Part shown: positions 2,977-21,834 of the stretch, one piece after another
Numbering within the stretch: position 1 is the stretch's first letter
Layout: every line of letters begins with the position of its first letter
IMG/VR virus record: IMGVR_UViG_3300023219_000215
Location: 1-22,087 of that record
Source: a virus
Strand: one strand, 5' to 3'
DNA: 22,087 nt
Notes under the pieces: model-generated
Seen by the model: only the letters and a program-made list of their open reading frames with translations
Database searches by the model: none
Told to the model about the DNA's origin: nothing
Program-made: the position numbers and the translations under genes

Positions 2977-2979
2977 GCC

Positions 2980-6646: not shown

Positions 6647-6649
6647 AGT

Positions 6650-7561: not shown

Positions 7562-7575
7562 ACCAAGATTTTGTG

Positions 7576-7598
7576 AAACCCGCTTTGGCGGGTTTTTT
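7576..7598 (+). terminator. Rho-independent terminator after the tail-fibre gene
   Basis: An 8-bp stem, AAACCCGC/GCGGGTTT, encloses a 4-nt loop (TTTG) and runs into a T-rich tract. It lies between the tail-fibre stop and the RBS of the SGNH tail gene (GGAGA at about 7604), so it would lower transcription into the next gene. Its layout is nearly copied at 11319-11340. Confidence 0.85.
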
Positions 7599-7618
7599 GA
7601 TGCCTGGAGAAATATTCA

Positions 7619-10198
7619 ATGACCGAAGTGGCGGCCGTAGAGGCTTACGCGGGGCAGCTTTCAGAAGCGGCGCAGAAGGCAACGACGCTGGCCGAAATGC
7701 AGCGCCAATACATCAATGGCAATGATCAAACCGACATCTACACCGAGACTGGGCCAGTGCCTACGCTGGCCAAGCAGGCACGACTGGGGCAGGAGAAGGT
7801 CACCGCTGCTCTGTCGGACGTAGCCACGCAGATGGCCGGCGCCATGGTATTTGACACCACGGCCATCGGCTTGTTGAAAACGCAGAACGGTGGCTATTTC
7901 AGCGTGCCCAGCGCGGAAATAGCCGAGTATCTGATCCTTTACAAGAATGCTGCGGGTGTTGCGCAGAGGATTAAGAGCTACCCGGCCGTTGAGGCTATCA
8001 CCGAGATCAATGAAAAGATCGAGGAGATCGAGGTCAGCGAATCCCCCAATGTGGCGTTTGCGGTCCAGGATGAAATGGGCCGGGCGGCGTTGAGTGTGGC
8101 CGATGACGGTACCGTCGATGCGCAAAAGCTGCGCGCGCAAGAGGTTGAGGTTTCATTGCCCCAGTCCGCCCCGGTTTTCTCCGTCGAGGATGATTCGGGT
8201 AACGCGGCCATTTCGGTCGATGCCAACGGCAAGGCGATCATTCCTAACCTGCAGGTGTCTGGGCTCAGTCTGGCCGCCGCTGAAATGGCCAGCGCGCCAT
8301 TCCCGCAAATCGCGTGGGGCATCTCTGACGAGGATGGCAACACGGTCGCCGGCTTTTATGAAGATGGTACGCCTTTTGGGTTTGGTGCTTCGTCCAGCAC
8401 GAGCGCTGAGCCTTGGCAGTACCTGTCGCTTGGCCTGGATGATGCCATTGCGCACATCGGTGACAGTTACGGCGGGGCGCATTACGTGTTGCCGGACAAG
8501 GCCTACATCAGCCAGCTAGCGCAGCTTTCGCCATTCCGCCATGTGAACTTCGCGGTCAGCGGCAACGACCTGCTGGACATGCAATATCGCGTGATAAACG
8601 GTGCCAGTTCCACCGGCAGCACCTTGGCGGCGATGAAAGTGCGCTATGCCTTCCTTACGTCGTTCACCAACGATGCCGCGTTCCGCAACGTTGACCGCAG
8701 TTTCTATGCGGAGAACTACCGCCGGCTGGTCGATACGGTGCGCGGGCTGGGCATCGAGCCAATCATTACTACCGAATTCCCGGCGGGGTCTATCGACAAT
8801 GCGTTGCTGAGCGCCCTGGCGGATGAAATGGGCTGTGCGTTTGTCGACTGTTCATCCATCGACGCGGAAGTTGGTGGGCTGAAACCGGGGCCTTTTCAGG
8901 AGGTTTCGGGGCATCCCGGCACCCGCACCGGCGGCGTTTTCTGGCAGCCGATGCTTGACTTCATCGACCGCCTGCCGCGCCCTGAACAGGCGATCAAGAT
9001 CTATCGCAAGCGGTCTACGTTCAATGCAGCTCAGGCCGCAGACCTGCTGTACAAAGACCGACTCGACCGGGCAGAAAAGTGGAAAGAACTCAGCGTGTAC
9101 CACTACGCGCTGAGCACGCCTGAGCGGTTCGAAGAGCTAAACCAGCTTGGCGTCTTTGGTACAGACTGGGGCTATACCGTCAAGGCAGATGAATACCTGA
9201 GATTGCAGAACGGATCGGCCGTCAGCTTCACCGACTATGGCCTGATTGAACTGACCCTGCCGGGCGACGCGGCAAGCCTGTCCACCGTTGAGATCAGCTT
9301 GGGTCTGACTGGTACGCCGAGTGTTTTCGCGCGTGACAATCTGGATGTGGATGCCAGCATGCCCGGCAAGATTCAGGGGTCTACCCCGACCGACGCTACC
9401 TATCTGTCCAAATGGAACAAGCCGCGCGGAGCGTGGCGGCTGTTGGGGGCGGCCCCGTCGGTGATCAGCTTGACCGGTTCCGAACTGTCCCGATCGATGG
9501 TCGGCCGAACGCTGACATTGATGGTTCAGGGGGCGTTCACCCTGTCTTCGCTCAGTGTCCGTTACAAGGGTCGGACGCGGATCAACGACATTGCCGTGCG
9601 CCGCCGCCGTAACGTAATTGGCAACAACCTGCTGGCCACTTCGGTGTGCGGTAACGCGCAGCAGCTGGCCGGCTGGACAGTCAGAGGCGCGCCTAAGACG
9701 CTGGTGCCGATTGACCTGGTGAATGCCCCGAGGGCGCCGGGAGGCGCTGCACCGGTCGATGGCGTCGTGACCATCACGGCCGACGACAATATCGGCCAGA
9801 CAGTCAACTTGCCGGCTGACGGAGGGCGCAAGCGTCGCTACCGGCTGACGGTGTGGGCGCGCTACTTCCCGAAAGCCTACTTGGACCCGGCACGTTATCC
9901 GGGCCTGGATGCCGAGCAGATCATCGACCGTATGACCAGCGCCGAGCCGGCGCCGATCACCTCGGACACCTTGGACCTGCGCACCGTCAAGTGTGAGATG
10001 TGGACCGGTAGCGCCTACCCGACTGCTGGCGGGATGGAGCAAACCACCTTCGCGTCGCTGCAGTACCGCGCGCTTGAATTCGAATATGAGGCCCTGCCGT
10101 ACCGGACAGGGCAGACCTTGAGCTTCAACCTTTCTTGCCTGAACGGATCGGTTCAGGTGGCCAAAGCTGATTTTGTGGAGATCGAAACATGGGCATGA
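7619..10198 (+). CDS. Large tail protein with SGNH/GDSL hydrolase domain
   Basis: Encodes 859 aa. The N-terminal 145 residues are helical and probably attach to the virion. Then come three related segments of about 40 residues (starting near 147, 187 and 233) with the pattern [FW]-x-[VI]-x-D-E/D-x-G. The SGNH domain follows: G-D-S-Y at 281-284 (nucleophile Ser283), S-G-N-D at 314-317 (Asn316) and G-H-P-G with His432 as candidate catalytic His. The usual Asp three residues before this His is not evident. The C-terminal 400 residues are beta-rich and unrecognised. Such virion hydrolases usually remove acyl groups from surface polysaccharides; the substrate here is unknown. The start ATG has a good RBS (GGAGA), and the stop overlaps the next gene by 10 nt. 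Confidence 0.8.
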   Translation: MTEVAAVEAYAGQLSEAAQKATTLAEMQRQYINGNDQTDIYTETGPVPTLAKQARLGQEKVTAALSDVATQMAGAMVFDTTAIGLLKTQNGGYFSVPSAEIAEYLILYKNAAGVAQRIKSYPAVEAITEINEKIEEIEVSESPNVAFAVQDEMGRAALSVADDGTVDAQKLRAQEVEVSLPQSAPVFSVEDDSGNAAISVDANGKAIIPNLQVSGLSLAAAEMASAPFPQIAWGISDEDGNTVAGFYEDGTPFGFGASSSTSAEPWQYLSLGLDDAIAHIGDSYGGAHYVLPDKAYISQLAQLSPFRHVNFAVSGNDLLDMQYRVINGASSTGSTLAAMKVRYAFLTSFTNDAAFRNVDRSFYAENYRRLVDTVRGLGIEPIITTEFPAGSIDNALLSALADEMGCAFVDCSSIDAEVGGLKPGPFQEVSGHPGTRTGGVFWQPMLDFIDRLPRPEQAIKIYRKRSTFNAAQAADLLYKDRLDRAEKWKELSVYHYALSTPERFEELNQLGVFGTDWGYTVKADEYLRLQNGSAVSFTDYGLIELTLPGDAASLSTVEISLGLTGTPSVFARDNLDVDASMPGKIQGSTPTDATYLSKWNKPRGAWRLLGAAPSVISLTGSELSRSMVGRTLTLMVQGAFTLSSLSVRYKGRTRINDIAVRRRRNVIGNNLLATSVCGNAQQLAGWTVRGAPKTLVPIDLVNAPRAPGGAAPVDGVVTITADDNIGQTVNLPADGGRKRRYRLTVWARYFPKAYLDPARYPGLDAEQIIDRMTSAEPAPITSDTLDLRTVKCEMWTGSAYPTAGGMEQTTFASLQYRALEFEYEALPYRTGQTLSFNLSCLNGSVQVAKADFVEIETWA

Positions 10199-11007
10199 TC
10201 ATTCGTGTAAAGGGCGTCAACTGGGCCGGTAAAGGCTTCCCGCTGGCCAATGGCTTCATCGCGCAAGCGAACCTTGAGGCCGCCTATGACTTTCGACCGC
10301 GTGCCTCACGCTTGCTGGAGGTGACGGGCAAAGGTTTCCTGGTGCAGCCGTACCTTAATAAGCTGGACGGTACCGTGGTGGCTGACCCTACAGTGATCAG
10401 GGACACCACCAACGGCCAAGGGATCATCGTCAAGAACGGGTTCATTGACTACGGCGTTGCGAACAAGACCTACACCGTTGGCGGCAGCGATGCTTTCACC
10501 CTGATGGTGGTGGGTGGCTATTCCGGCTTGGACTTTGAAGCAGGCCAGCCGGCCAACAATGCGTCCATCTGCAACCTGGCTGAAATGGGCAACGGCGTTT
10601 CCAGCGGGCCGACCTTACCCATGCTGCAACAGTACAGGGTCGACGGAACGCTGGGTGCCCGCGCGAACGCGGCGTATTCCTCCAACGTGGGCGCAGCGGA
10701 AGCGGTGGGCAAGAAGTCGTGTTTCTTCGTCAGCTACGACGGCGCCAAGATGACCTACACCAACAAGACTACCGGCGCCGTGGTGGTGAAAACCAACGCC
10801 GAACTGGGGCTGCCGGCTGGCCCGCTGGCACCGGCCACTCGGGCCAAGAACCTGACCAGTGGTAACTACTACCTCGGCACCACGGCGGTGATTGGCCTGT
10901 ACCCGGAGCTGTATCAGGTGGCTCGCTGGAACAAGGTGCTGAGCGCGGCGGAAATGCAGGACCAATACAACTCGTCCCGCCTGCTGTTCTCAAAGGTGGG
11001 TATCTGA
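10189..11007 (+). CDS. Tail protein with LamG / concanavalin A-like fold (putative receptor binder)
   Basis: Encodes 272 aa. The N-terminus (MGMIIRVKGVNWAGKGFPLANG) is short and polar; the rest is beta-rich. The C-terminal part, YPELYQVARWNKVLSAAEMQDQYN, is the characteristic end of laminin-G/concanavalin A-like lectin domains. The gene starts 10 nt inside the end of the SGNH tail gene, so the two are probably co-translated and may act together on a surface glycan: one binding, one modifying. That joint action is inferred from context. The stop lies 1 nt from the end of a convergent small gene. Confidence 0.7.
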   Translation: MGMIIRVKGVNWAGKGFPLANGFIAQANLEAAYDFRPRASRLLEVTGKGFLVQPYLNKLDGTVVADPTVIRDTTNGQGIIVKNGFIDYGVANKTYTVGGSDAFTLMVVGGYSGLDFEAGQPANNASICNLAEMGNGVSSGPTLPMLQQYRVDGTLGARANAAYSSNVGAAEAVGKKSCFFVSYDGAKMTYTNKTTGAVVVKTNAELGLPAGPLAPATRAKNLTSGNYYLGTTAVIGLYPELYQVARWNKVLSAAEMQDQYNSSRLLFSKVGI

Positions 11008-11008
11008 T

Positions 11009-11236
11009 TTAAGCGTGCCGGTCAGCACGGGCCTCATTCTCAACGTGCTCAAGCCAGGCTTTCTCCATTTTGGCATCGACGTACCGGCCATCAGGCTTTC
11101 TCTCAATAGACCTCATTCGTAAGGCTGGGGTGAGAGAGGCTTGGTGTTCGAACGATGGGCGTTCTGACTCGTATACATACTCTTCTTTGGATAATCCACG
11201 GAGATGAGTTAGGAAGCGGATGAGTTGGAAAAGCAT
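11009..11236 (-). CDS. Small hypothetical protein (possible moron gene)
   Basis: Encodes 75 aa on the minus strand, opposite to every neighbour and converging on the LamG-like gene with a 1-nt gap. The ATG at 11234-11236 is preceded by AAAAGGGAC, a fair ribosome-binding site. The protein is charged and helical, with an ending rich in Glu/Lys/Trp (DGRYVDAKMEKAWLEHVENE). There is no membrane segment or recognised domain. A lone reverse-strand gene inside a late operon is typical of a moron expressed from the prophage, but that role is inferred. Confidence 0.6.
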   Translation of the reverse strand: MLFQLIRFLTHLRGLSKEEYVYESERPSFEHQASLTPALRMRSIERKPDGRYVDAKMEKAWLEHVENEARADRHA

Positions 11237-11318
11237 GCTAGTCCCTTTTTGCAGCGATTGACCTGGCTATTTGAACACGCTTCGACTGAATCTCCCAATC
11301 TCAGACCATCTTGCAAAG

Positions 11319-11340
11319 CCCGCCCAGAGCGGGTTTTTTT
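11319..11340 (+). terminator. Rho-independent terminator before the lysis cassette
   Basis: Stem CCCGC/GCGGG with loop CCAGA, followed by seven T residues. It lies 18 nt upstream of the lysozyme-like start, and its downstream part (TTTTATGCTTGGAGAAAT) nearly matches the same position after the terminator at 7576-7598. Confidence 0.8.
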
Positions 11341-11357
11341 ATGCTTGGAGAAATGTA

Positions 11358-11810
11358 ATGGCAACAGCACTACCCCGAGGAGTACGCAACAACAACCCTG
11401 GGAATATCGACTTCAATTCCCGGAATGCTTGGTCAGGCCAGCTCGGCCTGGAGCTGGGAGTGTCGAAGCCCCGATTTGCCCGCTTCGACTCGCCGGAGAA
11501 CGGCATTCGTGCACTGGGCAAGCTGCTGCTGAACTACCGGGGCAAGGACGGTATGCCCGGTGTTGGCCGTCTTGGCATCGACACCCCGCTGGAGTTCATC
11601 AGCCGGTGGGCGCCGTCCAGCGAGAACAACACCTTGGCCTACGCCCAGGCCATTGCCAAGCGCCTGGGCGTTGGCGTGCGCGATTCCATCGACATCTCCA
11701 AGCCGCAGGTGCTGCGCGAAGCCGTGGTCGGCATCATCGTCCACGAGAACGGCGACAACCCCTACAAGGCCGAGGTGATCGACGAGGGCGTGCGGAGGGC
11801 GCTGGCATGA
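11358..11810 (+). CDS. Lysozyme-like peptidoglycan-degrading protein, putative endolysin ('structural protein P5' type)
   Basis: Encodes 150 aa. It carries the signature RGVRNNNPGNI near the N-terminus, found in a family of phage proteins with a lysozyme-like fold often labelled structural protein P5. Further family features are FDSPENGIRALGKLLLNY and LEFISRWAPSSENNTLAYAQ. There is no signal peptide. Its place directly before DUF6527 and Rz/Rz1 argues that it is the endolysin of this prophage, though a virion-borne role is possible. I chose the ATG at 11358 because it has a GGAGAAAT ribosome-binding site just after the terminator; the frame stays open upstream to 11271 but crosses that terminator. 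The stop overlaps the next start (ATGA). Confidence 0.75.
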   Translation: MATALPRGVRNNNPGNIDFNSRNAWSGQLGLELGVSKPRFARFDSPENGIRALGKLLLNYRGKDGMPGVGRLGIDTPLEFISRWAPSSENNTLAYAQAIAKRLGVGVRDSIDISKPQVLREAVVGIIVHENGDNPYKAEVIDEGVRRALA

Positions 11811-12124
11811 CCATCAAGACGATTGGCCGCTGCATTGGCCGAGCGGAAGACGGCTCGCTGTGGTTCTTCTGCCTCGGCTGCAAACTGCCGCATAGCCTGA
11901 ACGTGGGTGCCGGCCCTGGCCCGCGCTGGGGGTACAACGAGAATGCAGACGCACCGACCTTCACGCCGTCTGTGCTTTCGCGGTACCGCATGGGTAGTAA
12001 AGAAACGGTCTGCCACTCCTTCGTGACCGACGGCCGCATCCAGTATCTCGCCGACAGCACCCACGGCCTGGCCGGGCAAACGGTTGACCTTCCAGAGTGG
12101 GAGGCGGCATGGAACAGCTGGTAG
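11807..12124 (+). CDS. DUF6527 family protein
   Basis: Encodes 105 aa. It matches the DUF6527 family (sometimes mis-named ammonia monooxygenase in annotations): LWFFCLGCKLPHSLNV with a Cys-x2-Cys-like start, W and P-rich middle, TFTPSVLSRY, then CHSFVTDGRIQYLADSTHGLAGQ. The Cys and His residues suggest a small metal-binding fold. The function is unknown; it is common in tailed-phage late regions. I chose the ATG at 11807 because it overlaps the previous stop (ATGA), has GGAGGG 7 nt upstream and fits the family length; the much longer in-frame reading from 11225 passes antisense over the small reverse gene and through the endolysin. It overlaps the Rz start by 16 nt. Confidence 0.8.
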   Translation: MTIKTIGRCIGRAEDGSLWFFCLGCKLPHSLNVGAGPGPRWGYNENADAPTFTPSVLSRYRMGSKETVCHSFVTDGRIQYLADSTHGLAGQTVDLPEWEAAWNSW

Positions 12125-12651
12125 CGAAACTTTCATTGCCGCTGCGCTTGCTGGTCGTGCTCCTGGTGGTCGCCTCCTATTGGGGCATATACCAACATGG
12201 CCGGTCGGTTGAGCGAGCAGAGGCTGGCCAAGCATCGGCGCAACGAGACAGCGGTGACCGGCTGGCCGAAGTGATCGGCGAGCGCGGCGCTCGGCAGGAA
12301 GAACAACGACGCGCCACGGCGCAGGAGGAGGCGAGAGCCAATGCCCAGGAAGAACGTACGATTGCTAATGCTGGCGCTGCTGGCGCTGACGCTGCTGGCC
12401 AGCGGGTGCAGCACGACGCGGCCCAGTTCGCCGCCGCCGTCAGTTGCCCCGGCCCGGATACCGCCGCTATCGCCAGAGGCCAGAATGCCACCCGCGCCGC
12501 CATGGTGCTCTCCGACCTGTTCCGACGGGCTGACGCGCGAGCGGGAGAGCTGGCGAAAGCTTATGACAACGCCCGCATCGTAGCGAACCAGTGCGCCGCC
12601 GAGTACGACGCCTTGGTCATGAGACGGGGGACCGAACGGCCCCGCCAGTAA
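12109..12651 (+). CDS. Rz: Rz-type inner-membrane spanin (DUF2514 family)
   Basis: Encodes 180 aa. One N-terminal membrane segment at about residues 9-30 (LRLLVVLLVVASYWGIY) is followed by a long Ala/Glu/Arg/Gln-rich coiled-coil region. The C-terminal signature of Pseudomonas DUF2514 Rz-like proteins is ATRAAMVLSDLFRRADARAG. Spanins join inner and outer membranes and disrupt the outer membrane at the end of lysis. I prefer the ATG at 12109, preceded by GGGAGG, over the in-frame GTG at 12097. A lipoprotein gene of Rz1 type is nested in the +1 frame, which supports the call strongly. Confidence 0.85.
   Translation: MEQLVAKLSLPLRLLVVLLVVASYWGIYQHGRSVERAEAGQASAQRDSGDRLAEVIGERGARQEEQRRATAQEEARANAQEERTIANAGAAGADAAGQRVQHDAAQFAAAVSCPGPDTAAIARGQNATRAAMVLSDLFRRADARAGELAKAYDNARIVANQCAAEYDALVMRRGTERPRQ
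12341..12583 (+). CDS. Rz1: Rz1-type outer-membrane spanin lipoprotein, nested in Rz
   Basis: Encodes 80 aa, wholly inside the Rz gene in the +1 frame. It has a signal peptide (MPRKNVRLLMLALLALTLLA) ending in a lipobox L-A-S-G-C with Cys23 as the lipidated residue. The mature part of 58 residues is Pro-rich (PSSPPPSVAPARIPP), as expected for an o-spanin. Two overlapping strong Shine-Dalgarno sequences (AGGAGGAGG, 12323-12331) precede the ATG. Rz/Rz1 nesting is a known arrangement in tailed phages, and both features together make chance unlikely. Confidence 0.82.
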   Translation: MPRKNVRLLMLALLALTLLASGCSTTRPSSPPPSVAPARIPPLSPEARMPPAPPWCSPTCSDGLTRERESWRKLMTTPAS

Positions 12652-12671
12652 TTCGAAGGCTTCATGCAAAG

Positions 12672-12758
12672 AGAGCGGCCACCGGGGATGCGTCAACATC
12701 CCTGCTGACCGCCGAACCCGCAGACCATACCTGCAAGCCCAGCCAAGGCTCCCGCTCT
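12672..12758 (+). ncRNA. Branched structured RNA, C4 antisense RNA-like
   Basis: A closing stem AGAGCGG (12672-12678)/CCGCTCT (12752-12758) encloses three smaller hairpins: GGGATG/CATCCC (12685-12690/12697-12702), GCAG/CTGC (12720-12723/12731-12734) and AGCC/GGCT (12741-12744/12747-12750). This multi-branched layout between lysis genes and a phage gene resembles C4 antisense RNAs of P1-like and many other prophages, which mask the translation start of a downstream gene. The segment AGGCTC (12746-12751) can pair with GAGCCT at 12775-12780, upstream of the methyltransferase start. The family call is from memory of its general shape and is tentative; the structure itself is directly visible. Confidence 0.5.
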
Positions 12759-12801
12759 GTGCACAAAGCACGGCGAGCCTAGCACCTGTTCATTTCCTTG
12801 G

Positions 12802-13572
12802 ATGGGCGGCAAACGCCGCCTGGCCGACCGCTTGATTCCGCTTTTCCCCGCCCATGAGTGCTACGTCGAGGTCTTCGCCGGTGGCGCTGCCCTGTACTTC
12901 ATGCGACCACAACCCGCCCCGGTGGAGGTCTTGAATGATCTCAACGGCGATCTGGTCAATCTGTACCGGGTGGTGCAGAACCATCTGGAGGAGTTTGTCC
13001 GGCAGTTCAAATGGGCGCTGTCGTCCCGGCAGATCTTCGAGTGGCAAAAGATGGCGAGACCGGAGACGCTGACCGATATCCAGCGCGCCGCCCGATTCTT
13101 CTACCTGCAGCAGCACGCCTTCGGCGGCAAGGTCACTGGGCAAACGTTCGGTACCGCCACCACCGGACCTGCCATCAACCTCCTGCGCATCGAAGAGAAT
13201 CTGTCCGCCGCCTGGCAGAGGTTGGCCGGCACCTACGTCGAAAACCTGTCTTGGCTCGACTGTGCGCAGCGCTACGATCGCGCGCACACCTTCTTCTACA
13301 TGGACCCGCCTTACTGGCAGACCGCCGGGTACGGGGTCGATTTCCCGTTCGAACAATATCAGCGGATGGCTGAGTTCATGCGCACTTGCAAAGGCAAGGT
13401 GATGGTCAGCATCAACGATCATCCAGACATTCGAGCAGCCTTTGACGGGTTCCACTTCGAACAGCTGGATATCCGGTATACCACCGCGAACCAGCGACAT
13501 GGCCAGGCCGAAGTGACCGGAGAGCTGGTGATCATGAACTGGGCGCCGTCTGAACTCGGCCAGCTTTTTTGA
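12802..13572 (+). CDS. dam: D12-class DNA adenine methyltransferase
   Basis: Encodes 256 aa from the first ATG. SAM-binding motif EVFAGGAALYF lies at residues 23-33 and the catalytic D-P-P-Y at 168-171, in the order expected for Dam-like (D12) N6-adenine methyltransferases. The family N-terminus usually reads W-x-G-G-K near residue 10 with F-P or F-L before it. Here W-M-G-G-K overlaps the first ATG and the codons for C-S-F-P-W just upstream are in frame and look conserved, yet no ATG, GTG or TTG and no ribosome-binding site precede them; the frame is open back to about 12709. Translation may start at a weak codon or be controlled by the RNA structure upstream. In phages these enzymes protect DNA from restriction or alter regulation; the target sequence is unknown. 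Confidence 0.85.
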   Translation: MGGKRRLADRLIPLFPAHECYVEVFAGGAALYFMRPQPAPVEVLNDLNGDLVNLYRVVQNHLEEFVRQFKWALSSRQIFEWQKMARPETLTDIQRAARFFYLQQHAFGGKVTGQTFGTATTGPAINLLRIEENLSAAWQRLAGTYVENLSWLDCAQRYDRAHTFFYMDPPYWQTAGYGVDFPFEQYQRMAEFMRTCKGKVMVSINDHPDIRAAFDGFHFEQLDIRYTTANQRHGQAEVTGELVIMNWAPSELGQLF

Positions 13573-13640
13573 ATGGAGAGGGTGGCGTAGCAAGCGGTAG
13601 CTTAGAGGCGGTACGGCGGGATCGGCCCGCTGATCGGCAA

Positions 13641-13669
13641 TTGCCTCATGGGCATTCGCTCTATACGAT
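13641..13669 (+). promoter_or_regulatory. Sigma-70-type promoter of the SOS-box operon
   Basis: A -35 element TTGCCT (13641-13646) and a -10 element TACGAT (13664-13669) are spaced by 17 nt, each matching the consensus at four of six positions. Transcription would start near 13676, inside the LexA-type operator, leaving a leader of about 23 nt before the ATG at 13699. Confidence 0.55.
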
Positions 13670-13670
13670 A

Positions 13671-13686
13671 CTGTTTTTTTATACAG
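13671..13686. promoter_or_regulatory. LexA operator (SOS box)
   Basis: CTGTTTTTTTATACAG fits CTGT-N8-ACAG with an AT-only spacer, the LexA-box pattern of gammaproteobacteria including Pseudomonas. It directly follows the -10 element and covers the expected transcription start, so bound LexA would block the two small genes downstream until DNA damage. Confidence 0.8.
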
Positions 13687-13698
13687 TATTGGTGCCCC

Positions 13699-13992
13699 AT
13701 GTATTTCCTCCTCGTTCGTCGCCGCGAGAAAGGCGTGGCCATACCATCAAGTAGCCTTCGGAAAATTCAGCCCCTGCGTGCAGATGTCCACATCGGTGAT
13801 CACCATAGCGATTCGCTTGGCCGGGTATCGACCCAGGCGTGGGTGTTCAACCCTACGCCTGGACCCGATGTCATTCCCCGGTTGCACGATGCTAAGGTCA
13901 ACGGCATGGCCCAGCTGGGAATGAACATCAACGGAGTGGAGGACATCGACGGCGTGTTGTACGCCCAGTCCTGGTGGTGCAGGGCAGAATGA
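13699..13992 (+). CDS. SOS-box-controlled small protein of unknown function
   Basis: Encodes 97 aa (MYFLLVRRREKGVAIP...). It has no signal peptide or membrane segment and is rich in His, Asp and Gly in the middle (RADVHIGDHHSD), with Trp-Trp near the C-terminus (AQSWWCR). I do not recognise a named domain. The start at 13699 was chosen because it lies downstream of a promoter and SOS box; an in-frame ATG at 13648 would place translation across the promoter. The ribosome-binding site is weak (TTGGTG). It overlaps the next gene by 4 nt (ATGA), so the two are a small operon induced with the prophage or with host DNA damage. Confidence 0.7.
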   Translation: MYFLLVRRREKGVAIPSSSLRKIQPLRADVHIGDHHSDSLGRVSTQAWVFNPTPGPDVIPRLHDAKVNGMAQLGMNINGVEDIDGVLYAQSWWCRAE

Positions 13993-14291
13993 TGAGTTCA
14001 CTACCGAGAGCGTGGCTCGATGAGCTCAACGACGAGGCCGAGTTGATCAGTGACCCAGACGGGCGCGCAACCGTATTGACTGAAATGGCGATCGCGGCCC
14101 ATCGGCGCCGCGAGGTCGATTCAGATCAGCTTTCTGATATGTTGGAGTTCGTCGAGGCTGCTCGATACTTCGGTTTGAACGAGGTTGATGAGTGGTACGA
14201 GTTGGGGATATTTGGCTATCACGAGCCGTTGCCCGCATGGGGCAATCAGGTCATCAAGGGGACAGGGAAAATCCCGCGTGCTGATGGGTAG
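13989..14291 (+). CDS. Small acidic protein, second gene of the SOS-box operon
   Basis: Encodes 100 aa. It is helical and acidic in the first two thirds (LDELNDEAELISDPDGRA, QLSDMLEFVEAARYFGLNE), ending in a Gly/Pro-rich tail. No domain is recognised. It starts in an ATGA overlap with the upstream gene (a second ATG at 13992 is equally possible) and has no promoter of its own that I can see. It is the last protein-coding gene before the tRNA-Ser junction, a position where prophages commonly carry accessory genes. Confidence 0.65.
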   Translation: MMSSLPRAWLDELNDEAELISDPDGRATVLTEMAIAAHRRREVDSDQLSDMLEFVEAARYFGLNEVDEWYELGIFGYHEPLPAWGNQVIKGTGKIPRADG

Positions 14292-14324
14292 CCAATCTGT
14301 CGGCAGAACGCCGGAGGAGGGTGT

Positions 14325-14408
14325 AAATCGATTCCAAAACTGAAACGGCGACCCTTGCAGTATGCGGCCTGTAGCCGTGCTGTTTCGTCTTTGTTTTGGA
14401 ATCGATTT
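14325..14408. repeat. 16-bp perfect inverted repeat, 52 nt apart
   Basis: AAATCGATTCCAAAAC (14325-14340) is the exact reverse complement of 14393-14408. Inside, GAAACGGC and GCCGT..GTTTC partly extend the pairing and CGGC-CTGTA-GCCG forms a tip hairpin, so one strand folds into a long imperfect stem. No T-run follows. It sits between the SOS operon and the tRNA-Ser fragment, where phage attachment-site arms or an RNA element would be expected. Confidence 0.85.
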
Positions 14409-14444
14409 TGCGGTACAGTCCGCATGGGATGGGGCTTTATCCCA

Positions 14445-14506
14445 CGGTCTTGAAAACCGGCGAACGTTAATCGCGTTTCCAGGGTTCGAATCCCTGGTTC
14501 CCCGCC
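14445..14506 (+). other. tRNA-Ser(UGA) 3' portion; probable prophage attachment site (attR)
   Basis: From the anticodon arm onward the sequence is a normal serine tRNA: stem CGGT/ACCG around loop CTTGAAA (anticodon TGA at 14451-14453), a long variable arm, T-arm CAGGG-TTCGAAT-CCCTG and 3' acceptor strand GTTCCCC with G-C-C. The expected 5' acceptor strand (GGGGAAC) is absent upstream; instead two hairpins abut it: TGCGG/CCGCA (14409-14424) and TGGGAT/ATCCCA (14425-14444). A tRNA cut at the anticodon arm is what remains at the integrase-distal end when a phage integrates in the 3' half of a tRNA gene. The intact copy would be at the other end of the prophage, left of this window. Confidence 0.65.
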
Positions 14507-14525
14507 GCGAATTCAATAAAATCAA

Positions 14526-14556
14526 GGGCTTAGGTGCAAACCTAAGCCCTTTTTTT
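14526..14556 (+). terminator. Strong rho-independent terminator after the tRNA-Ser fragment
   Basis: Perfect 9-bp stem GGGCTTAGG/CCTAAGCCC with loop TGCAAA and seven T residues. It probably is the original terminator of the host tRNA-Ser gene, marking host-derived DNA to the right of the attachment site. Confidence 0.9.
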
Positions 14557-15617
14557 ATGATTTTTTCCATGAAAATTGACCAGCGCAGTCTCGCTAATTG
14601 TAGCTCTGATACCTCGCCAGTTAAGGGGCAGCTACAGAGTTGCGTAATGTTGCGTCTTGTTGCATTCATTTCTGCTCCTTCTGCGAAATCGTGCAACTCA
14701 ATAGTGGCTGAAGGCGTTAGTTGCTTCGCTTATCTCAGTGACTATTGAGTGAGATTAATTCATTTTCTCTGGGTTCAAGATGATCTGTGGTCATGATGCT
14801 GGGGCAGCCGAGATGAACTGCTCGGCGCTGTCGGCGGTGAGTGCGAGCTCATGCTAGGTGTGTAGCCTGGTAGGGGATCTGTCTCGCTTTATGCGTTGAG
14901 TCCTTTTCCCAGATGGGAGGATGAGTGACTACCTCTGCCCGCAACCGATTCGTTTATTGAGCTGATCGCATCTCAGCTGATGCCTTCAATTCGGAGCAGC
15001 TGTAAGCTCTATAACGAGTCAGGATTTGTGGCGGGCGCGCGCTGAAATGCGCAAAGGACACCACTATCCTAAGCCCTCGGAAGGATGACCTGAGGGTAGG
15101 TGTGTTGGCTCCGGCGTGCTCCACGCTATCAAAATAGCCAGACTGCGCCCCTTCTACCATCGCGTCGCACTTGTCCTTTGATCGATGCTCGTTCTCTTCC
15201 TAGGGATCTATGCGCCCGGTTTGGGCTCACTCCTTTTTGCTGCTCTGGCCGCTATCCAAGCGGTTACGCATCCCTGCCAAGTGCCGCTGTCTCGGTTGAA
15301 ATAATTTCGCAACCGACGCATTCACTCATGAGCCGATAAATGAGCGATGCCTCCTATGCAGCGCATCGAATCCTGTCCCATTTTTAGTTAATGCAAATAA
15401 CTCTTATTCGCGAAGGCGGGCTGTTCTTCGGTATGGGTGTGCTCAGAGCCCCGGAGAGGGGCGTTTATGCGCAATTAAAGAGCAGAGCTAGGCCCCCAGC
15501 TCTAGGACTCATTCGGCACTAAAAAGGCCCCGATAGAGCGAACAAAAAACAGTATGCTGCGAGTATACTCTAAGGTGCAACTAAATAATTGCATCTTGTT
15601 GATTTGCGAAAAAACCT
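14557..15617. other. About 1 kb without a convincing gene; hairpins and short repeats only
   Basis: No reading frame here has a believable start, length and composition. Visible structure: three GTTGCGT-like direct repeats with a 10-bp period (14639-14665), a GC hairpin GCCCC/GGGGC (15448-15462), AGAGCT/AGCTCT (15484-15503), the palindrome GAGTATACTC (15561-15570) and TGCAA/TTGCA (15576-15593). The last two lie just before the recombinase genes. The stretch may contain the left end of the island and recombinase binding sites; degenerate remnants of older insertions are possible. Confidence 0.6.
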
Positions 15618-15686: not shown

Positions 15687-17108
15687 ATGAAGCATGTAGA
15701 GTTGTATGAAACGACTAGGAATGGGGTTCCTACTTTCAGGTTGATCTCGTCAGATCCAATGATGAATGAGTTTTTTGATAGCTGGGCATACCAGTTAGCT
15801 AAAGTTAGGAAATTTCAGACTGTTAAAGCGTACTGCTACGCTTCTGCAGGGATGCTGAATTTTATACATCAAGTAAGCTTGAACAATGGTGGGCTTACAC
15901 CATTTTTGCTTAATGAGGCATTGGACAGCTATGAAAGCTATTTGGTTTTCGGTGTTGAAAGTGACTCCCCAATTGCAAGTGATGCGGCTAAGGTGCTTGG
16001 ATCGCGGAATTTGGCGGGAGCGTCTGTAGGAACGAGTTTGGCTGGCTGCAATAAATTTATTCAAGCTAGCGAGGCGATGCGAGATGGCTTGTTACAAATG
16101 CAAGGGAGTGGTTATGTAACGGATACCATTGCGTCGATGGTGCCGCTTCTCGTTGAAAAATTCGCTGATGCACCCCGCCAGGTGAGTGCAGCGATCAAAG
16201 CGAACAGTTGGCTAGCAGGATGCATCGCGGGTGGCGTGAAAAAAATTAGGAAGCAGAAGCTCACGCCGACCTCGAAAGCACCAACCATGGCGCACACAGA
16301 TTTTTTTGGTGGCGACTATAAAGCGTTCCCTATCGATAAATGTGTTGCATTGATCGACAGTGCGGAGTGCCTGCGAGATAAAGTGCTTTGGTCTTTTCTG
16401 GCTGCCTCAGGCTGCCGGGTTTCTGAAGCGCTTACCGTTCTTATGGATGACATCGTCATTGATATTGAAAATCCAGCACTGAATCGTGTGTATATTATCG
16501 ATCCAGATACTCGGCGTGAACTTTTGATTAAGTTCATTCCAGAGCGGTTGCTCAATAAGCTGGATCATAAAGGGCGAGACAAACCTGATACTTTCCTCAT
16601 TGAGCCGTTTGCATCTATTTTTTGGATGAATTTGGCGCTCTATCATGAGGAACAGATTGCGAAGGAGAAGCAAAGGCATCGGCCTGTATTGCATCCTTTC
16701 CTTTTTCGTAATCTCCGTGACGGTGGCGCCATGCCGTCTTCGTACCAGGCTGTATGGGAACGCTTTAACAAAGCGGCGCTCAAAGTTACTGGCACTAGCT
16801 ATGGGTTCCATTCTTTGCGTCACATGTACGCCTATTATCTGGTGAATCATTGCCCAAATCCAAGGGATCCCAAGCGGTTTGGTCTTGACCTCAAAATGGT
16901 ACAGCAACTTATGGGGCATAAATCTATTGCGTCCACGGAGCGCTATGCGCGCAAAGATGCAAGGATGCTCGAAGCTACGTTTGCTGCTCTCAATATGCTC
17001 CGTATGTCCGCTTCGAATTTCAATGTTGCTAAGGTTCAACTTCAGCATTTGGAATGTGAAGTAGAGCAAATCAAGAAAATTTTGGGTGAAGGCAATGACA
17101 ATCATTAA
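15687..17108 (+). CDS. gmtY: Tyrosine recombinase, probable Gamma-Mobile-Trio recombinase GmtY
   Basis: Encodes 473 aa. The C-terminal half has the full tyrosine-recombinase set: Arg244 (GCRVSEAL), H375-x2-R378 with His379 (HSLRH), Gly-His at 410-411 (LMGHKS) and nucleophile Tyr420 (TERYA). The N-terminal 190 residues are a probable core-binding domain with helical sequence (QTVKAYCYASAGMLNFI). I chose the ATG at 15687; the frame is open to a GTG at 15618, but that extension (Cys-rich, no ribosome-binding site) looks non-coding. It overlaps the next gene by 14 nt. A recombinase of this size before a very large second recombinase and a small coiled-coil protein matches the GmtY-GmtZ-GmtX trio. 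Codon use is more AT-rich than in the prophage, so it belongs to a different element. Confidence 0.75.
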   Translation: MKHVELYETTRNGVPTFRLISSDPMMNEFFDSWAYQLAKVRKFQTVKAYCYASAGMLNFIHQVSLNNGGLTPFLLNEALDSYESYLVFGVESDSPIASDAAKVLGSRNLAGASVGTSLAGCNKFIQASEAMRDGLLQMQGSGYVTDTIASMVPLLVEKFADAPRQVSAAIKANSWLAGCIAGGVKKIRKQKLTPTSKAPTMAHTDFFGGDYKAFPIDKCVALIDSAECLRDKVLWSFLAASGCRVSEALTVLMDDIVIDIENPALNRVYIIDPDTRRELLIKFIPERLLNKLDHKGRDKPDTFLIEPFASIFWMNLALYHEEQIAKEKQRHRPVLHPFLFRNLRDGGAMPSSYQAVWERFNKAALKVTGTSYGFHSLRHMYAYYLVNHCPNPRDPKRFGLDLKMVQQLMGHKSIASTERYARKDARMLEATFAALNMLRMSASNFNVAKVQLQHLECEVEQIKKILGEGNDNH

Positions 17109-20100
17109 TCTCAGCAAAGATAATCCTATTTGGCTGGTGCCAGAGGAAAAATTAAACTATGAGTTTCGGAAAGCCGTAAGGCTTGTGTTGCAGGTCTACA
17201 AGAAGACCTGTGGAAATGCAAAAGGTGGCGCTACCACAAGAGTTGAGGCTGCTTTTCGGTATGGGATTGATTTCAAAGGTTGGAAGTTCCATGAATTCGA
17301 GCTTCTTCTTAAGTCCACGTTCCGCAAAAGTGAGATCAAACTTGGGCATATTGATCGCAAGCTTCACGGCTTGCCTTCATCATATGATGAGCCCTTGTCT
17401 CAGTTCTTTCGCGTGGTTTTCATTGCTCTCTGGGCGCGTAAAGTGTTCATCGCGCCTTTGTCAATCCAAACGATCAACCACCTGGCAGGGTCATTTGATC
17501 TGTTGTGCGAAACAGTCGACCTTGAGTGTCTCACCATTATCCGTGGTGTCCATCCTCAATCTCGTATCGAAAGCATTTTCAAACGTGACGAGTTTAATAA
17601 TGGTAGCAGCCGAGTTAATTTTTGGCTGCGGCTGTTGTTGAGCACGAATTTCTATAACGTCGAAGACATCACGGAGGAAGGGTGCAAAATTCTCTTTGAT
17701 GGTGCTAATGGTTCTGGCGAACTGCCGCTGCGGCGGTACTACGTCAACGACTTCTTGCTGACCATCACCAGTTCATCGCCTGCCAAGAAAAAAATGGTTG
17801 AAGGTATTGTAAATCAGTACCAGGACTCTAAGCGTAAGAATACGGTTGCCAAGGTTTACAAAGGGCGCCGGGTGGCACAGAAAAAAGATGTCAAAACTAC
17901 AGCGCAAGAAGCGCACGAGATTGCGTATAAAATGGCGCAAACTCTGGCTAACGGTGAGGTTGAATTTGACTTCGAGCCGGTGTTCAAGACCCACTTCCAG
18001 CCATACCGAATGAAAGGGATTTTCAGCCTAGGCGAGGATGGTGATCGGCTTCCTTTTGTAGAGGCATCACATCCCCAAGTGAAGAATTTTGCTATTTATA
18101 TTGATGGTGTGTTTCGCTCATTTATGAGGTCGAAGCGACTGCAAAAATCAAGTGGTTATACAGCTTTGCTTAGCATTTTTATGAGCTATGTCACAATGTA
18201 TTTGCCAGGCTTCTATATGCGTCGTGATGGAAGCCTTGAGAACTATCCGAGGACGATTAATGATTTCACTTGTACTCTCTACTTTACTCGTGAGTCAGTG
18301 TTTTTGGACGGGGTTATCAAGTTTGAGAAACAGCCGCCTAGAACGTTTTTGGCATACTTGGAGGCTTACGCGCGTGCTCATGGCTGGGGGAATGATACTC
18401 ACTATGCCCGTGTGCTGGTCATGGATCACTTCTGCCAATACATTGAGGATAACAAGCTAGCCCTGCCTGATGCGGATCAGTTCAAATGCAATTTCACCAG
18501 TGCTTGTTATCCGCCTGTAGAGAGGAGGGTGGGGACGGTTAAGAAGCCAATTCCTAGGGTGTACTTTGCAACATTTTTGAGCATGCTTTATAGCCTTGAG
18601 TATCTGACTGATCACATTAACAATATGCCTTACTACGAGGAGCAAGACGAAAAGGATATCAATTATGGAGTTTTGAATGGTAAGCTGTATCAGCCAACGA
18701 TGGCTGAACTTCAGAATAGTCATGCATGGGCTGGCCTTTACACGAGGGAGGCTAGGGGATTTGGCGAGGTCAACCAATCACTGCTCAACTATACTCCCAT
18801 TTTCTACCATGAGCAGAAAATTTACCGGTTTGAGATCCTTCCGAGGTTCTACAAAGTGGTTGATTTTGAGTTTAATGGCCAAATTGTTCAGCGCATTTCT
18901 CCAAACTCGGTGCGCTTGACAATTCTTATGTGCGAAACGGGGCTGCGTCAGCAGCATCTTATTTGGCTTAATAAAGACAAATATGATTGTGTGTTCGACA
19001 GGTACTGGGATAGTCCGTTGGCGCCGTTGTTTGTCAGCTCGGACAAATCACATAGTGAATGGACAGCGATTGTTTCGCGTCATGTTATCGATGTCATGGA
19101 TCGCCAAAAAGCTTGGTATGAATCATGTAGTGATCCTGCTTATCAAGAAGATCTTTGGTATGGCTTTACCAAGGGTTCTAAGTTTGGCAAATTCAAACCG
19201 CTGTTCCGGGATGCTGGGAAGGGTACGAGCTATTGGGCAAATTATCGGCATTTTCCTGTCTACTTGTTGATGCTTCAGCACTTTATCAAGGAGGTGATTG
19301 GGGATGATACTGGAAAGGACTTGGTCTTCCTGAAATCGGCGGACGAGAAAAATAAGCCTATTGCGGGCTACGACAACGTGTATTTGAGCTCTCTTTCGGT
19401 CGACGAATTGACCAGTCCCCATACTCCGCATGGTCTGCGGGCGGGCTTTGTTTCCGAAGCGATGCGCTTTTTGCCGCCATCCTTGATTGGTCAGTTTATG
19501 ACGGGGCAGACGGAGCAGCTGGTCTGGTACTACACCATCTTCGATGGGGAAAACATGCCAGATCATCAGAAACTGCTGGCAGACTACATGCTCAAGAACA
19601 TGGACAAGCTCAGCGGAGGTGATGCACCTGAACTTGCTGCTGCCGCACTACGGTTGAACGCCAGGCTGGCGGACAGCATCCGTGTGGATCCAGTCAAAGC
19701 CATCGAGACGCATGGCTTGATCAGCCTCACAGGGGTGAAAGCAGAAGATAGCGGACTTGAGGTGTTGCGAGCCAAGAGGTACACGAAGCTGGCATACAAC
19801 AACTGTCATATCTGCCCATTTGATAACCGCTGCCCCAAAGAAGTAATTCAACAGATTGGAGCAGGGAGACCTTGTGCGCTTTGCCCGTATGCTATCCGGG
19901 GTGTTGACCACCTGCCCGCTATTAGTGCGGAAAAGGATAAATCCAAAGAGGTAATGAAGGAGGTCATGGGCAAGTTGCGTGAGTGGCGTGCTTTGAAACC
20001 AGCCTCACGCAACGCTCAAGATGCTGAGAAGCTGAATGAGGAATATGATCGCTATGCTAGGGAGGCTTATGCCCTGGAGGTGATCGAGCATCAGCTCTAC

Positions 20101-20541
20101 CGTATGGCGAAAAGCGGGGATTTTAAGAGCTATTTCCTTCCTGAGAAAGACGGGTTGGTAGCTCATTTCGAGAAGGTTAATGTTACCGAGGCAGAGCACG
20201 TGCTGAAGCGTTTGATCGACGTTCAGAACTTCCCAGATGCGTCGAGTGAGAGCTTGAATCAGAAGTTCGCCTATATGCGTATGGCAATGCTGATGAATCA
20301 GGGGAAATTTGACGAGCTTTTGCGTGTCGACCCAAGGCCTCCAAGCCATCAACTCTCGTCGCAGATCTCCAGCATGATGACTGCAGGAGTTCTCGATGTG
20401 AGGGATGTCATTAAGATCGGACATGCGGCCTCTAACCCGCCCGTCCTTACCAAACCGGGTCATTCGATCTCTGCGACCTTGGGCATCGAAAAACTGGCCA
20501 AGGAGTCTTCTGACTCCATTCCTGGTGTAAAGATTGCCTAG
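17095..20541 (+). CDS. gmtZ: Very large integrase-like protein, probable Gamma-Mobile-Trio integrase GmtZ
   Basis: Encodes 1148 aa, far longer than ordinary integrases. Residues 1-600 are helical and unrecognised. A divergent tyrosine-recombinase domain follows: Arg618 (ETGLRQQHL), H779-G-L-R782 (PHGLRAGF), and Gly804-Gln805 where Gly-His is usual, then Tyr812/Tyr813 (VWYY) as candidate nucleophile. After it comes a cysteine cluster, C904-x2-C907-x5-C913-x13-C927-x2-C930, probably metal binding. The last 180 residues are helical. I chose the ATG at 17095, which overlaps the gmtY stop by 14 nt behind GGGTGAAGG; a GTG at 17086 adds three residues. It is co-transcribed with gmtY. The pair would act together in moving the island, as known for the trio family; individual roles are not evident here. 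Confidence 0.72.
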   Translation: MTIINLSKDNPIWLVPEEKLNYEFRKAVRLVLQVYKKTCGNAKGGATTRVEAAFRYGIDFKGWKFHEFELLLKSTFRKSEIKLGHIDRKLHGLPSSYDEPLSQFFRVVFIALWARKVFIAPLSIQTINHLAGSFDLLCETVDLECLTIIRGVHPQSRIESIFKRDEFNNGSSRVNFWLRLLLSTNFYNVEDITEEGCKILFDGANGSGELPLRRYYVNDFLLTITSSSPAKKKMVEGIVNQYQDSKRKNTVAKVYKGRRVAQKKDVKTTAQEAHEIAYKMAQTLANGEVEFDFEPVFKTHFQPYRMKGIFSLGEDGDRLPFVEASHPQVKNFAIYIDGVFRSFMRSKRLQKSSGYTALLSIFMSYVTMYLPGFYMRRDGSLENYPRTINDFTCTLYFTRESVFLDGVIKFEKQPPRTFLAYLEAYARAHGWGNDTHYARVLVMDHFCQYIEDNKLALPDADQFKCNFTSACYPPVERRVGTVKKPIPRVYFATFLSMLYSLEYLTDHINNMPYYEEQDEKDINYGVLNGKLYQPTMAELQNSHAWAGLYTREARGFGEVNQSLLNYTPIFYHEQKIYRFEILPRFYKVVDFEFNGQIVQRISPNSVRLTILMCETGLRQQHLIWLNKDKYDCVFDRYWDSPLAPLFVSSDKSHSEWTAIVSRHVIDVMDRQKAWYESCSDPAYQEDLWYGFTKGSKFGKFKPLFRDAGKGTSYWANYRHFPVYLLMLQHFIKEVIGDDTGKDLVFLKSADEKNKPIAGYDNVYLSSLSVDELTSPHTPHGLRAGFVSEAMRFLPPSLIGQFMTGQTEQLVWYYTIFDGENMPDHQKLLADYMLKNMDKLSGGDAPELAAAALRLNARLADSIRVDPVKAIETHGLISLTGVKAEDSGLEVLRAKRYTKLAYNNCHICPFDNRCPKEVIQQIGAGRPCALCPYAIRGVDHLPAISAEKDKSKEVMKEVMGKLREWRALKPASRNAQDAEKLNEEYDRYAREAYALEVIEHQLYRMAKSGDFKSYFLPEKDGLVAHFEKVNVTEAEHVLKRLIDVQNFPDASSESLNQKFAYMRMAMLMNQGKFDELLRVDPRPPSHQLSSQISSMMTAGVLDVRDVIKIGHAASNPPVLTKPGHSISATLGIEKLAKESSDSIPGVKIA

Positions 20542-20570
20542 TCGAAATTGATCGTGTAGAGATCGCCTAT

Positions 20571-20606
20571 GTAGCAGTTGCAGTCATTTGTTGACAATTC
20601 TGCTAC
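20571..20606. repeat. 7-bp inverted repeat upstream of gmtX, possible operator
   Basis: GTAGCAG (20571-20577) and CTGCTAC (20600-20606) flank 22 nt containing TTGACA (20591-20596); TACAAT (20604-20609) follows. The two promoter-like boxes are only 7 nt apart so they cannot form one promoter. The symmetry suggests a site for a dimeric regulator controlling gmtX separately from the gmtYZ pair. Confidence 0.45.
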
Positions 20607-20638
20607 AATGGGTTCCTCGACCGAGAGTGAGTGATTCG

Positions 20639-21289
20639 ATGGGACGCAGAGATACATTTCTGGAGTATAGGGGAAAGCATAAGGCTGCTAGAATTTCGCA
20701 TATTCATAGCGCCCTAAAGGTTTTGTCCAATGCTAACTATGAAAATGTTACTGGCCTTGCTAAAGGCGTGGCGAAAATAGTTACTGAAATAGAGTTGCGT
20801 AACCATCTCAGCTTACCTGAGCATGAAAGGGTAACTGACCTCAAGCCCGTAAGTCACGTTACGCTGCTTAGGAATCCAGACTATCGCAAGATTTTAGAGG
20901 ATAGTTTTTCTCCTGATGTTAGCGTTGATGCGCCAGTCTCAATTAGCCTCTCGGATTATGAGGCATTAAAGATTCGAAATGCGGGTCTGGCAGGTCAAAT
21001 TGTACAGCTTAAGCATACAATCAGAAATCTAGATGCTGGTGATGTTGTGGTTTCTGGTGACTCGGAGAAATTAAAAGCGGAAATCAATTTTTTGAATGAT
21101 GATTTGAAGTTCTTGATTTCTTTTATAGATAATATGCAGAGTGAGGCATCAGATGTTTTCCTTACGGTCAGGCCTGGTGAGGAAAGCTCAGAATTTAGTG
21201 CGGCTGGCTATTATGGGGTCATGAACATGGTCGCGACATATGACGAGCTTTTACGTCTAGAAAAGTTGCGCCAGAAGTTTGAGGCATAG
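20639..21289 (+). CDS. gmtX: Probable Gamma-Mobile-Trio protein GmtX
   Basis: Encodes 216 aa from the ATG at 20639 (MGRRDTFLEYRG), which follows GAGAGTGAG; the in-frame ATG/TTG codons upstream overlap the inverted repeat and are less likely. The N-terminal 95 residues are basic and helical (RISHIHSALKVLSNANYENV), with a possible DNA-binding segment, and residues 110-175 form a coiled coil (YEALKIRNAGLAGQIVQLKH, LKAEINFLNDDLKFL). No enzyme motif is visible. Its position 97 nt behind the large integrase and its size fit GmtX, the third member of the trio, whose function is unknown to me. The next gene is convergent. Confidence 0.62.
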   Translation: MGRRDTFLEYRGKHKAARISHIHSALKVLSNANYENVTGLAKGVAKIVTEIELRNHLSLPEHERVTDLKPVSHVTLLRNPDYRKILEDSFSPDVSVDAPVSISLSDYEALKIRNAGLAGQIVQLKHTIRNLDAGDVVVSGDSEKLKAEINFLNDDLKFLISFIDNMQSEASDVFLTVRPGEESSEFSAAGYYGVMNMVATYDELLRLEKLRQKFEA

Positions 21290-21360: not shown

Positions 21361-21834
21361 CTATTCTTTTGCCCAATATCGGCGCACAGAGGTGAGCGGA
21401 AGCTTTAGATACTCTGCTACTTCTAGCTGGCTCAATCCCTTTGCCTTTAAATCAAGGACGGCTTGCTCATTTGCTAAATTGAGTGGCTTCCCACGGCTCC
21501 TCTCTACCAGCTTACCTTCCACGTCGAATTGAGTATCAAGCGTCTTTAGTGCGCCTTCTGACTCCAGCGCCTGTAGTTGAGCGTTAGCTCGCATGAGGAC
21601 ATCCTGATAGGACTGTCCTGACGAGGTGGCAATAGCCAGGGCATGCATGGCCACGCCATCAAGATCTAGTGAGTTGGCGATTTCGTCGAATCGCTCCAGG
21701 GTGACGCTTACGTCGCCGTTCTCGAGGGCGCTTATCTTGCGCCTAGAGAGCGCATCCGACAGATCTGTGTAGCGCGCCTTGCGAAGGATGCGGAGTGTTC
21801 GAAGTACGCCTGCAAAGGCGATGCGCAATTCCAT
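21361..21834 (-). CDS. Regulator with two helix-turn-helix segments (XRE-type N-terminus)
   Basis: Encodes 157 aa on the minus strand. The N-terminal 60 residues resemble an XRE/Cro helix-turn-helix, with SRRKISALENGDVSVTLERF as recognition and following helices. The C-terminal end, VLDLKAKGLSQLEVAEYLKL, resembles a resolvase/recombinase-type helix-turn-helix. The middle (residues 70-120) is helical and charged. It could repress island genes or act as an antitoxin-like or replication-control protein; no toxin gene lies beside it within the window. The start is the ATG at 21832-21834. It converges on gmtX and is divergent from the insertion sequence at the right. Confidence 0.65.
   Translation of the reverse strand: MELRIAFAGVLRTLRILRKARYTDLSDALSRRKISALENGDVSVTLERFDEIANSLDLDGVAMHALAIATSSGQSYQDVLMRANAQLQALESEGALKTLDTQFDVEGKLVERSRGKPLNLANEQAVLDLKAKGLSQLEVAEYLKLPLTSVRRYWAKE

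Follow-up and report, generated by a model that had tools for sequence, protein, structure and literature searches.

A recombinase trio in Pseudomonas islands linked to broken single-copy tRNA genes and complete replacement tRNAs

Three consecutive genes on a contig stored as a virus most probably encode the integration machinery by which a family of Pseudomonas islands enters the T-loop of a single-copy tRNA gene through site-specific recombination, a reading to which we assign a probability of roughly 0.85. In relatives with mapped ends, the resident tRNA gene is broken and the island brings a complete tRNA gene with the same anticodon. The window, that is, the whole stretch of DNA analysed, is a complete IMG/VR record of 22,087 bp, and the contig ends at position 22087. 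It holds only the 3' part of such a tRNA and the left part of an island; because both island ends lie outside the contig, its membership in the family rests on relatives that are 58-78% identical. Its features are as follows.

1-14444, + strand: right-hand portion of a prophage, with PHROGs and Pfam matches to tape measure, baseplate, tail fibre, Rz spanin and D12 methyltransferase; not part of the island
14445-14459, + strand: CGGTCTTGAAAACCG, tRNA anticodon arm and putative attR core of the prophage (same 15-bp arm at the junction in locus L003)
14445-14506, + strand: 3' part of the island's replacement tRNA-Ser(UGA), identical to the 3' part of the L003 island tRNA, with the 5' part displaced by the prophage
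14524-14551, + strand: intrinsic terminator behind the replacement tRNA (12-bp stem, then a T run)
15572-15597, no strand: palindrome AAGGTGCAA-CTAAATAA-TTGCATCTT upstream of the trio, recurring in relatives
15687-17108, + strand: ORF1, tyrosine recombinase of 473 aa (Pfam PF00589, invariant catalytic R, K, H, R, H, Y)
17095-20541, + strand: ORF2, large second tyrosine recombinase of 1148 aa with a C-terminal Cys/His cluster (family profile, XerA match, hhalign to GmtZ)
20639-21289, + strand: ORF3, small helical protein of 216 aa (homologue or positional counterpart at the same place in related loci; structure model)
21361-21834, - strand: Cro/CI-type HTH protein of 157 aa (PF01381)

The trio genes lie where the preliminary description had placed them, all on the + strand, and the reading frames of ORF1 and ORF2 overlap. 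ORF1 is the tyrosine recombinase that had been proposed: Pfam Phage_integrase matches it with an E-value of 1.4e-13, and the catalytic residues R244, K295, H375, R378, H411 and Y420 are invariant across 27 homologues. The 1148-aa product had been called recombinase-like, which agrees with the match of the ORF2 family profile to the XerA structure 4a8e at the TPHxLR...YY motif (E 8e-6) and identifies ORF2 as a second tyrosine recombinase. Invariant residues in ORF2 are R618, K651, H779, R782 and Y813 together with C907, C913, C927, C930 and H939, a cluster that looks metal-binding. Since Gln stands in ORF2 where XerA has its second active-site His, catalytic activity may be low or lacking. An AlphaFold model of the protein was poor (mean pLDDT 39; four sequences) and was left unused. 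ORF3, which had been read correctly as the small coiled-coil third protein of a movement module, gave a mostly helical model (mean pLDDT 75); its fold search returned no PDB match at E 0.001, and it shows no recombinase features. It is likely an accessory DNA-binding subunit.

Related loci, among them P. peli and a second IMG/VR contig (78% identity), have the three genes in the same order and at similar lengths, an arrangement far beyond chance. The ORF2 gene of L003 is frameshifted (L003:10001-13410; 526 + 626 aa), and the trio of that locus may therefore be inactive or mis-sequenced. The palindrome AAGGTGCAA-N8-TTGCATCTT, expected about 0.01 times per window by chance, recurs upstream of ORF1 in L003, L036, L039 and L122 and is found ~130-140 bp inside the right end of the islands in P. 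peli and genome G228, which makes it a putative binding site for a recombination or regulatory protein. Homologues of the HTH protein adjoin the trio in L003, L036 and L039, also in L041, L055, L087 and L095, and in L122 by sequence. The 157-aa protein has a second HTH-like motif at its C-terminus, and homologues occur in related loci, either close to the trio or at another position.

At all 24 mapped left ends (21 from the locus table and three from prediction genomes; 10 Ser, 7 Ile and 7 Gly), the tRNA is cut in the T-loop at GTTC|TTA[TC], its 3' half is replaced by unrelated sequence, and an intact tRNA with the same anticodon follows in the same orientation. The gap between the cut and the intact tRNA is 41-65 bp overall, with 53-64 bp for Ser in the 21-locus table, 64-65 bp for Ile and 41-43 bp for Gly. 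The 5' part of the split tRNA ends in GTTC and the 3' part starts with GAATC or GATTC, leaving dead fragments at both island ends. The native tRNA-Ser(UGA) of P. peli and G228, which neighbours yccA, breaks off after GTTC; where GAATC would be expected the sequence reads TTAT..., and 63-64 bp further on stands an intact tRNA-Ser(UGA). Empty sites in other Pseudomonas consist of yccA followed by a single uncut tRNA-Ser(UGA) with the same promoter side; the broken 5' part of G228 is matched, within the tRNA, by the empty sites of G009 and G005, and that of G100 by those of G007 and G013. Comparison with island-free strains, which the preliminary description had suggested for locating the borders, thus yielded both empty tRNA sites and broken-tRNA island ends in Pseudomonas relatives.

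A matching 3' remnant marks the right end in P. peli (C9:1073259; island of ~41.8 kb), G228 (C51:167536; ~64 kb), G100 (3011009), G017 (~65 kb) and G301 (~109 kb). A search for the 3' fragment within 40 kb had not found the Ser right ends because the islands are larger, and a genome-wide pattern search found them; for Ile and Gly islands, no right end was found within 20 kb around the trio. The right end reads GGTACCTTGGATAAGGGTTC|GAATC and the left ends GTTC|TTATCTTAGGTACA, from which it follows that the termini form imperfect inverted repeats on the two sides of GGGTTC in the tRNA. Since the trio is inverted or near the right end in some islands, trio and tRNA are not always adjacent. The Gly-clade trios at L088:2618-10837 and L093:2299-10521 are inverted relative to the tRNA end and lie ~3 kb away from it.

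The intact island tRNA-Ser is found by ARAGORN in L003, L036, L039, L002 and L040, and a stem-loop with a T run stands behind the island tRNA in Ser-clade islands. The tRNA with a CAT anticodon is labelled tRNA-Met by ARAGORN and is taken here as tRNA-Ile2. In two Ile islands (L084:3692-4005; L086 ~2325-2647), the replacement tRNA-Ile(CAU) contains an anticodon-loop intron of 236 or 244 nt, and the L084 intron scores 27.8 bits (E 4e-5) with the Rfam group I intron model RF00028, below the curated threshold of 50.

Copy counts set island genomes apart from island-free ones. tRNA-Ser(UGA) is present in two copies in 6/6 island genomes, one broken and one intact and 121-133 bp apart, and in one copy in 4/4 island-free genomes; for tRNA-Gly(CCC), the counts are two in 7/7 and one in 5/5, leaving aside another glycine tRNA that the pattern also picks up in most genomes with two mismatches. 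tRNA-Ile(CAU) occurs twice in five of seven island genomes, the other two having an intron-split second copy, and once in all five island-free genomes. By these whole-genome pattern counts, the gene carried by the island is the sole intact copy that the patterns find in these genomes. An out-of-sample prediction held in 3/3 cases: G301, G128 and G154, which have Ser-clade trios and no tRNA in 20 kb around the trio, each have two tRNA-Ser(UGA) genes at a distance of 119-121 bp, one intact and one broken at GTTC|TTAT. Only one tRNA-Ser(UGA) is present in the non-Ser genomes G114, G169 and G076. The idea that the broken outer tRNA is still functional was dismissed, since nothing restores the 3' half of its acceptor; even so, one such fragment scores 39.9 bits in Rfam.

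The window itself shows how such an island came to be filed with a phage. A prophage end is present, as had been described; it is not located at the trio but in tRNA-Ser at ~14445, ~1.2 kb upstream of ORF1. The reported shift in base composition is also seen, with a GC content of ~0.58-0.66 over most of the prophage and 0.44-0.52 from ~14.5 kb. The L003 prophage abuts the broken native tRNA in the same 15-bp anticodon arm, CGGTCTTGAAAACCG, and the island left end and the intact tRNA follow; L122 has the same arrangement as the window, with 13+ bp of the arm. These three junctions imply that the anticodon arm of tRNA-Ser is the target of an independent phage, which lies in tandem with the island. 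In the window, the prophage ends in the arm of the island's own tRNA-Ser, which explains why the trio is near a prophage end; the left end of the island must lie to the left of the prophage, beyond the contig. Because prophage and island share one tRNA site, host island DNA was stored as virus records (window, L003 and L122), and the analysis brought these islands in IMG/VR to light. An inverted repeat, CGATTCCAAAA...TTTTGGAATCG, is conserved between the window (~14330-14410) and L003 (~7221-7303) at the prophage right end, immediately ahead of the tRNA junction.

One could still regard the trio as the integration module of the prophage, given that the window is a single virus record in IMG/VR and that the trio also lies to the right of the tRNA junction in the IMG/VR contigs L003 and L122, with similar phage late genes clearly preceding it in one of the two. 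In Pseudomonas chromosomes, however, its left neighbour is the chromosomal yccA and not phage genes, the prophage ends in the anticodon arm while the island ends in the T-loop, the L003 prophage border lies outside the left end of the island in the native tRNA fragment, and GC drops across the junction; we consider this origin very unlikely. A conventional tRNA island would account for an intact and a partial tRNA side by side: in classical islands, the split gene is rebuilt from a tRNA fragment supplied by attP, which leaves one intact and one partial tRNA (Islander definition, PMC4383910), in which case the intact tRNA here would be the restored native gene and the upstream piece a displaced fragment. 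The trio islands share with classical islands and prophages a tyrosine recombinase, a tRNA target (24 left and five right junctions in relatives) and tRNA fragments at the ends. Yet the upstream piece, beside yccA, still has its native promoter side and 5' sequence, and exactly the 3' remainder that it lacks stands at the far end of the island; the intact tRNA between them diverges from the native gene over its full length, which makes three tRNA pieces, not two. Neither end rebuilds the split gene, and a separate, complete and divergent tRNA takes over. The junctions of P. peli, G228, G100, G017 and G301 are inconsistent with a restored native gene, which we judge very improbable. As phages and islands often carry tRNAs, the carried gene might also be neutral cargo or a decoding booster whose match to the split gene is incidental; an anticodon identical to that of the split gene in 24/24 cases, across three tRNA species and with a constant end, orientation and distance of 41-65 bp, leaves next to no room for such a coincidence.

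The preliminary description had assigned the trio to the Gamma-Mobile-Trio (GMT), islands with the genes GmtY-GmtZ-GmtX reportedly described by Mahata et al. 2024. The resemblance that it noted is real: the order of tyrosine recombinase, large recombinase-like protein and small protein is the same in the window and in Pseudomonas GMT loci, protein sizes are alike, and ORF1 and GmtY can be aligned as tyrosine recombinases. In hhalign, the ORF2 family aligned with GmtZ with a probability of 99 and an E-value of 5.5e-18 over 562 columns at 13% identity, and two ORF2 family members score 31 and 51 bits with GmtZ. The NCBIfam models, which had been named as the check, nevertheless speak against membership. 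Against cut-offs of 340 bits for GmtY (NF040693), 600 for GmtZ (NF047926) and 40 for GmtX (NF040692), ORF1 reached 48.3 bits with GmtY, below XerD (51), ORF2 had no NCBIfam match, GmtZ included, and ORF3 did not match GmtX, NCBIfam giving one irrelevant sub-threshold match; a lack of GmtZ and GmtX matches was the very outcome that the preliminary description had set against its own assignment. As a control, GmtY passes its cut-off in 8/149 Pseudomonas genomes (434-536 bits), with neighbouring genes scoring 627-1030 bits for GmtZ and 177-249 bits for GmtX. Real GMT loci thus pass all three models, which confirms that the models work and that both kinds of trio coexist in Pseudomonas. ORF3 was not alignable with GmtX by hhalign (probability 10), and a search of seven Pseudomonas GMT loci found no tRNA. 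GMT membership was rejected because the three models fail where the positive controls pass, and we give it very little credence. The trio is better seen as a separate, GMT-like module in which ORF2 is, by profile comparison, a distant homologue of GmtZ, with kinship at the superfamily level. No member of the tRNA-swapping family passes the GMT models, the small proteins are unrelated by sequence, and the family, unlike the seven GMT loci, targets the T-loop of a tRNA and carries a whole replacement. The broader claim of a putatively mobile gammaproteobacterial island holds, as the relatives sit in Pseudomonas.

A protein search recovered trio relatives in 32 of 399 Pseudomonas species at identity levels of ~39-58%, 27-29% and 22-26%, and the order of the trio was kept in the loci examined. 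A class-wide profile search of 369 sampled gammaproteobacterial genomes added one weak match only; no ORF2 relative was found in plasmid and phage collections, nor any match when viral sequences were scanned with Gly-clade and Ile-clade proteins. In the recombinase tree, the Ser clade and the Ile clade are each fully supported, and the Gly islands fall into a third clade together with three members that have no assigned target. The target goes with the recombinase clade and is tRNA-Ser(UGA), tRNA-Ile(CAU) or tRNA-Gly(CCC). The trios of L055, L089 and L091 form a subclade among the Gly-target branches, with no split tRNA alongside and a single tRNA-Ser(UGA).

Based on the termini, we propose that ORF1 and ORF2 would act together as a complex of two recombinases at GGTACCTTGGATAAG / CTTATCTTAGGTACA, the imperfect inverted repeats on either side of the crossover region GGGTTC. 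The palindrome, which precedes ORF1 and in two islands also lies near the right end, may be bound by ORF3 or the HTH protein. The replacement tRNA would be transcribed by read-through from the native promoter of the broken gene, as suggested by the short spacer, the lack of a promoter-like site in the cut-to-tRNA gap of the one Gly locus scanned, and the terminator stem directly behind the Ser tRNAs. Precise excision of the P. peli island would restore the T-loop GTTCGAATC, and the circle would join ...GGATAAGGGTTC to TTATCTAAGG...; since the broken tRNA is single-copy, loss of an island by any route other than precise excision would presumably remove the only copy of the cell. In the window, a later prophage would then have attached at the anticodon arm of the tRNA-Ser that the island carries.

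Islands in tRNA genes are usually regarded as harmless since the split gene is rebuilt, whereas the trio family breaks the gene and substitutes a divergent tRNA. Three tRNA species are affected, of which Ser-UGA and Ile-CAU are expected to be essential from general knowledge. Whole-tRNA replacement may thus be a simple mechanism of retention by dependence, and it offers a route for the exchange of tRNA genes between species, two of the carried tRNAs having an intron. Pairs of tRNAs that share an anticodon, one broken and one intact, at a distance of ~100-130 bp provide a search signature for more islands. The open-access literature searched contained no earlier account of islands that replace a whole tRNA, and one may exist elsewhere.

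Other multi-recombinase elements resemble the trio in part. Tn554 encodes two recombinases and TnpC, and by description Tn554-type TnpABC and recombinase-in-trio elements likewise have several recombinase genes in one operon; recombinase-in-trio elements have three tyrosine recombinases, whereas here there are two and ORF3 lacks recombinase features. To our knowledge, neither type has been described as carrying tRNAs. GInt, with the four-gene core ginABCD and insertion in a protein gene (PMC5385486), and strand-biased circularizing elements, with the four-gene core intA-tfp-intB-srap (PMC10214605), share a multi-recombinase operon near one island end, occurrence in gammaproteobacteria and a small accessory protein. 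Going by these descriptions, the trio is set apart by its two recombinases plus one small protein and by its tRNA targets, and it does not have the four-gene core with three recombinase-like proteins.

Some resident tRNAs bear on what becomes of carried genes. G013 has a single uncut tRNA-Gly(CCC) (L150) in native flanks that is identical to the island-carried tRNA of another genome, and the single tRNA-Ser(UGA) of G006 (L193) is of island type and also sits in native flanks. Judged from their sequences, these genes may have been left behind by an island, and they would fit equally well with islands acquiring tRNAs from such species. The single resident tRNA at L143 in G005 is likewise of a sequence type that is otherwise island-carried, and it may be another such leftover. 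Serial insertion of one island into the tRNA of another is possible in G340, G249 and G028, where the outer fragments lie at the native site and may be of native type. We tentatively speculate, while regarding it as somewhat doubtful, that the islands are tRNA-swapping machines that drive tRNA turnover in Pseudomonas by disabling a single-copy tRNA, imposing dependence, offering a fresh landing site for islands and phages, and leaving their tRNA as a resident gene after decay.

To the right of the trio, the window contains only the HTH gene and an open frame before the contig ends, and the expected cargo would lie beyond it; the HTH gene would be the first cargo gene of the island or a regulator gene. 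The island of P. peli encodes a ThsB, ThsA, ThsB set (L189:449-3031; Thoeris, ThsA 519 bits) and an Mrr-type nuclease (L002:16486-17244). Defence cargo, a further likeness to GMT islands, is therefore plausible for the tRNA-swapping family, as seen in this one relative.
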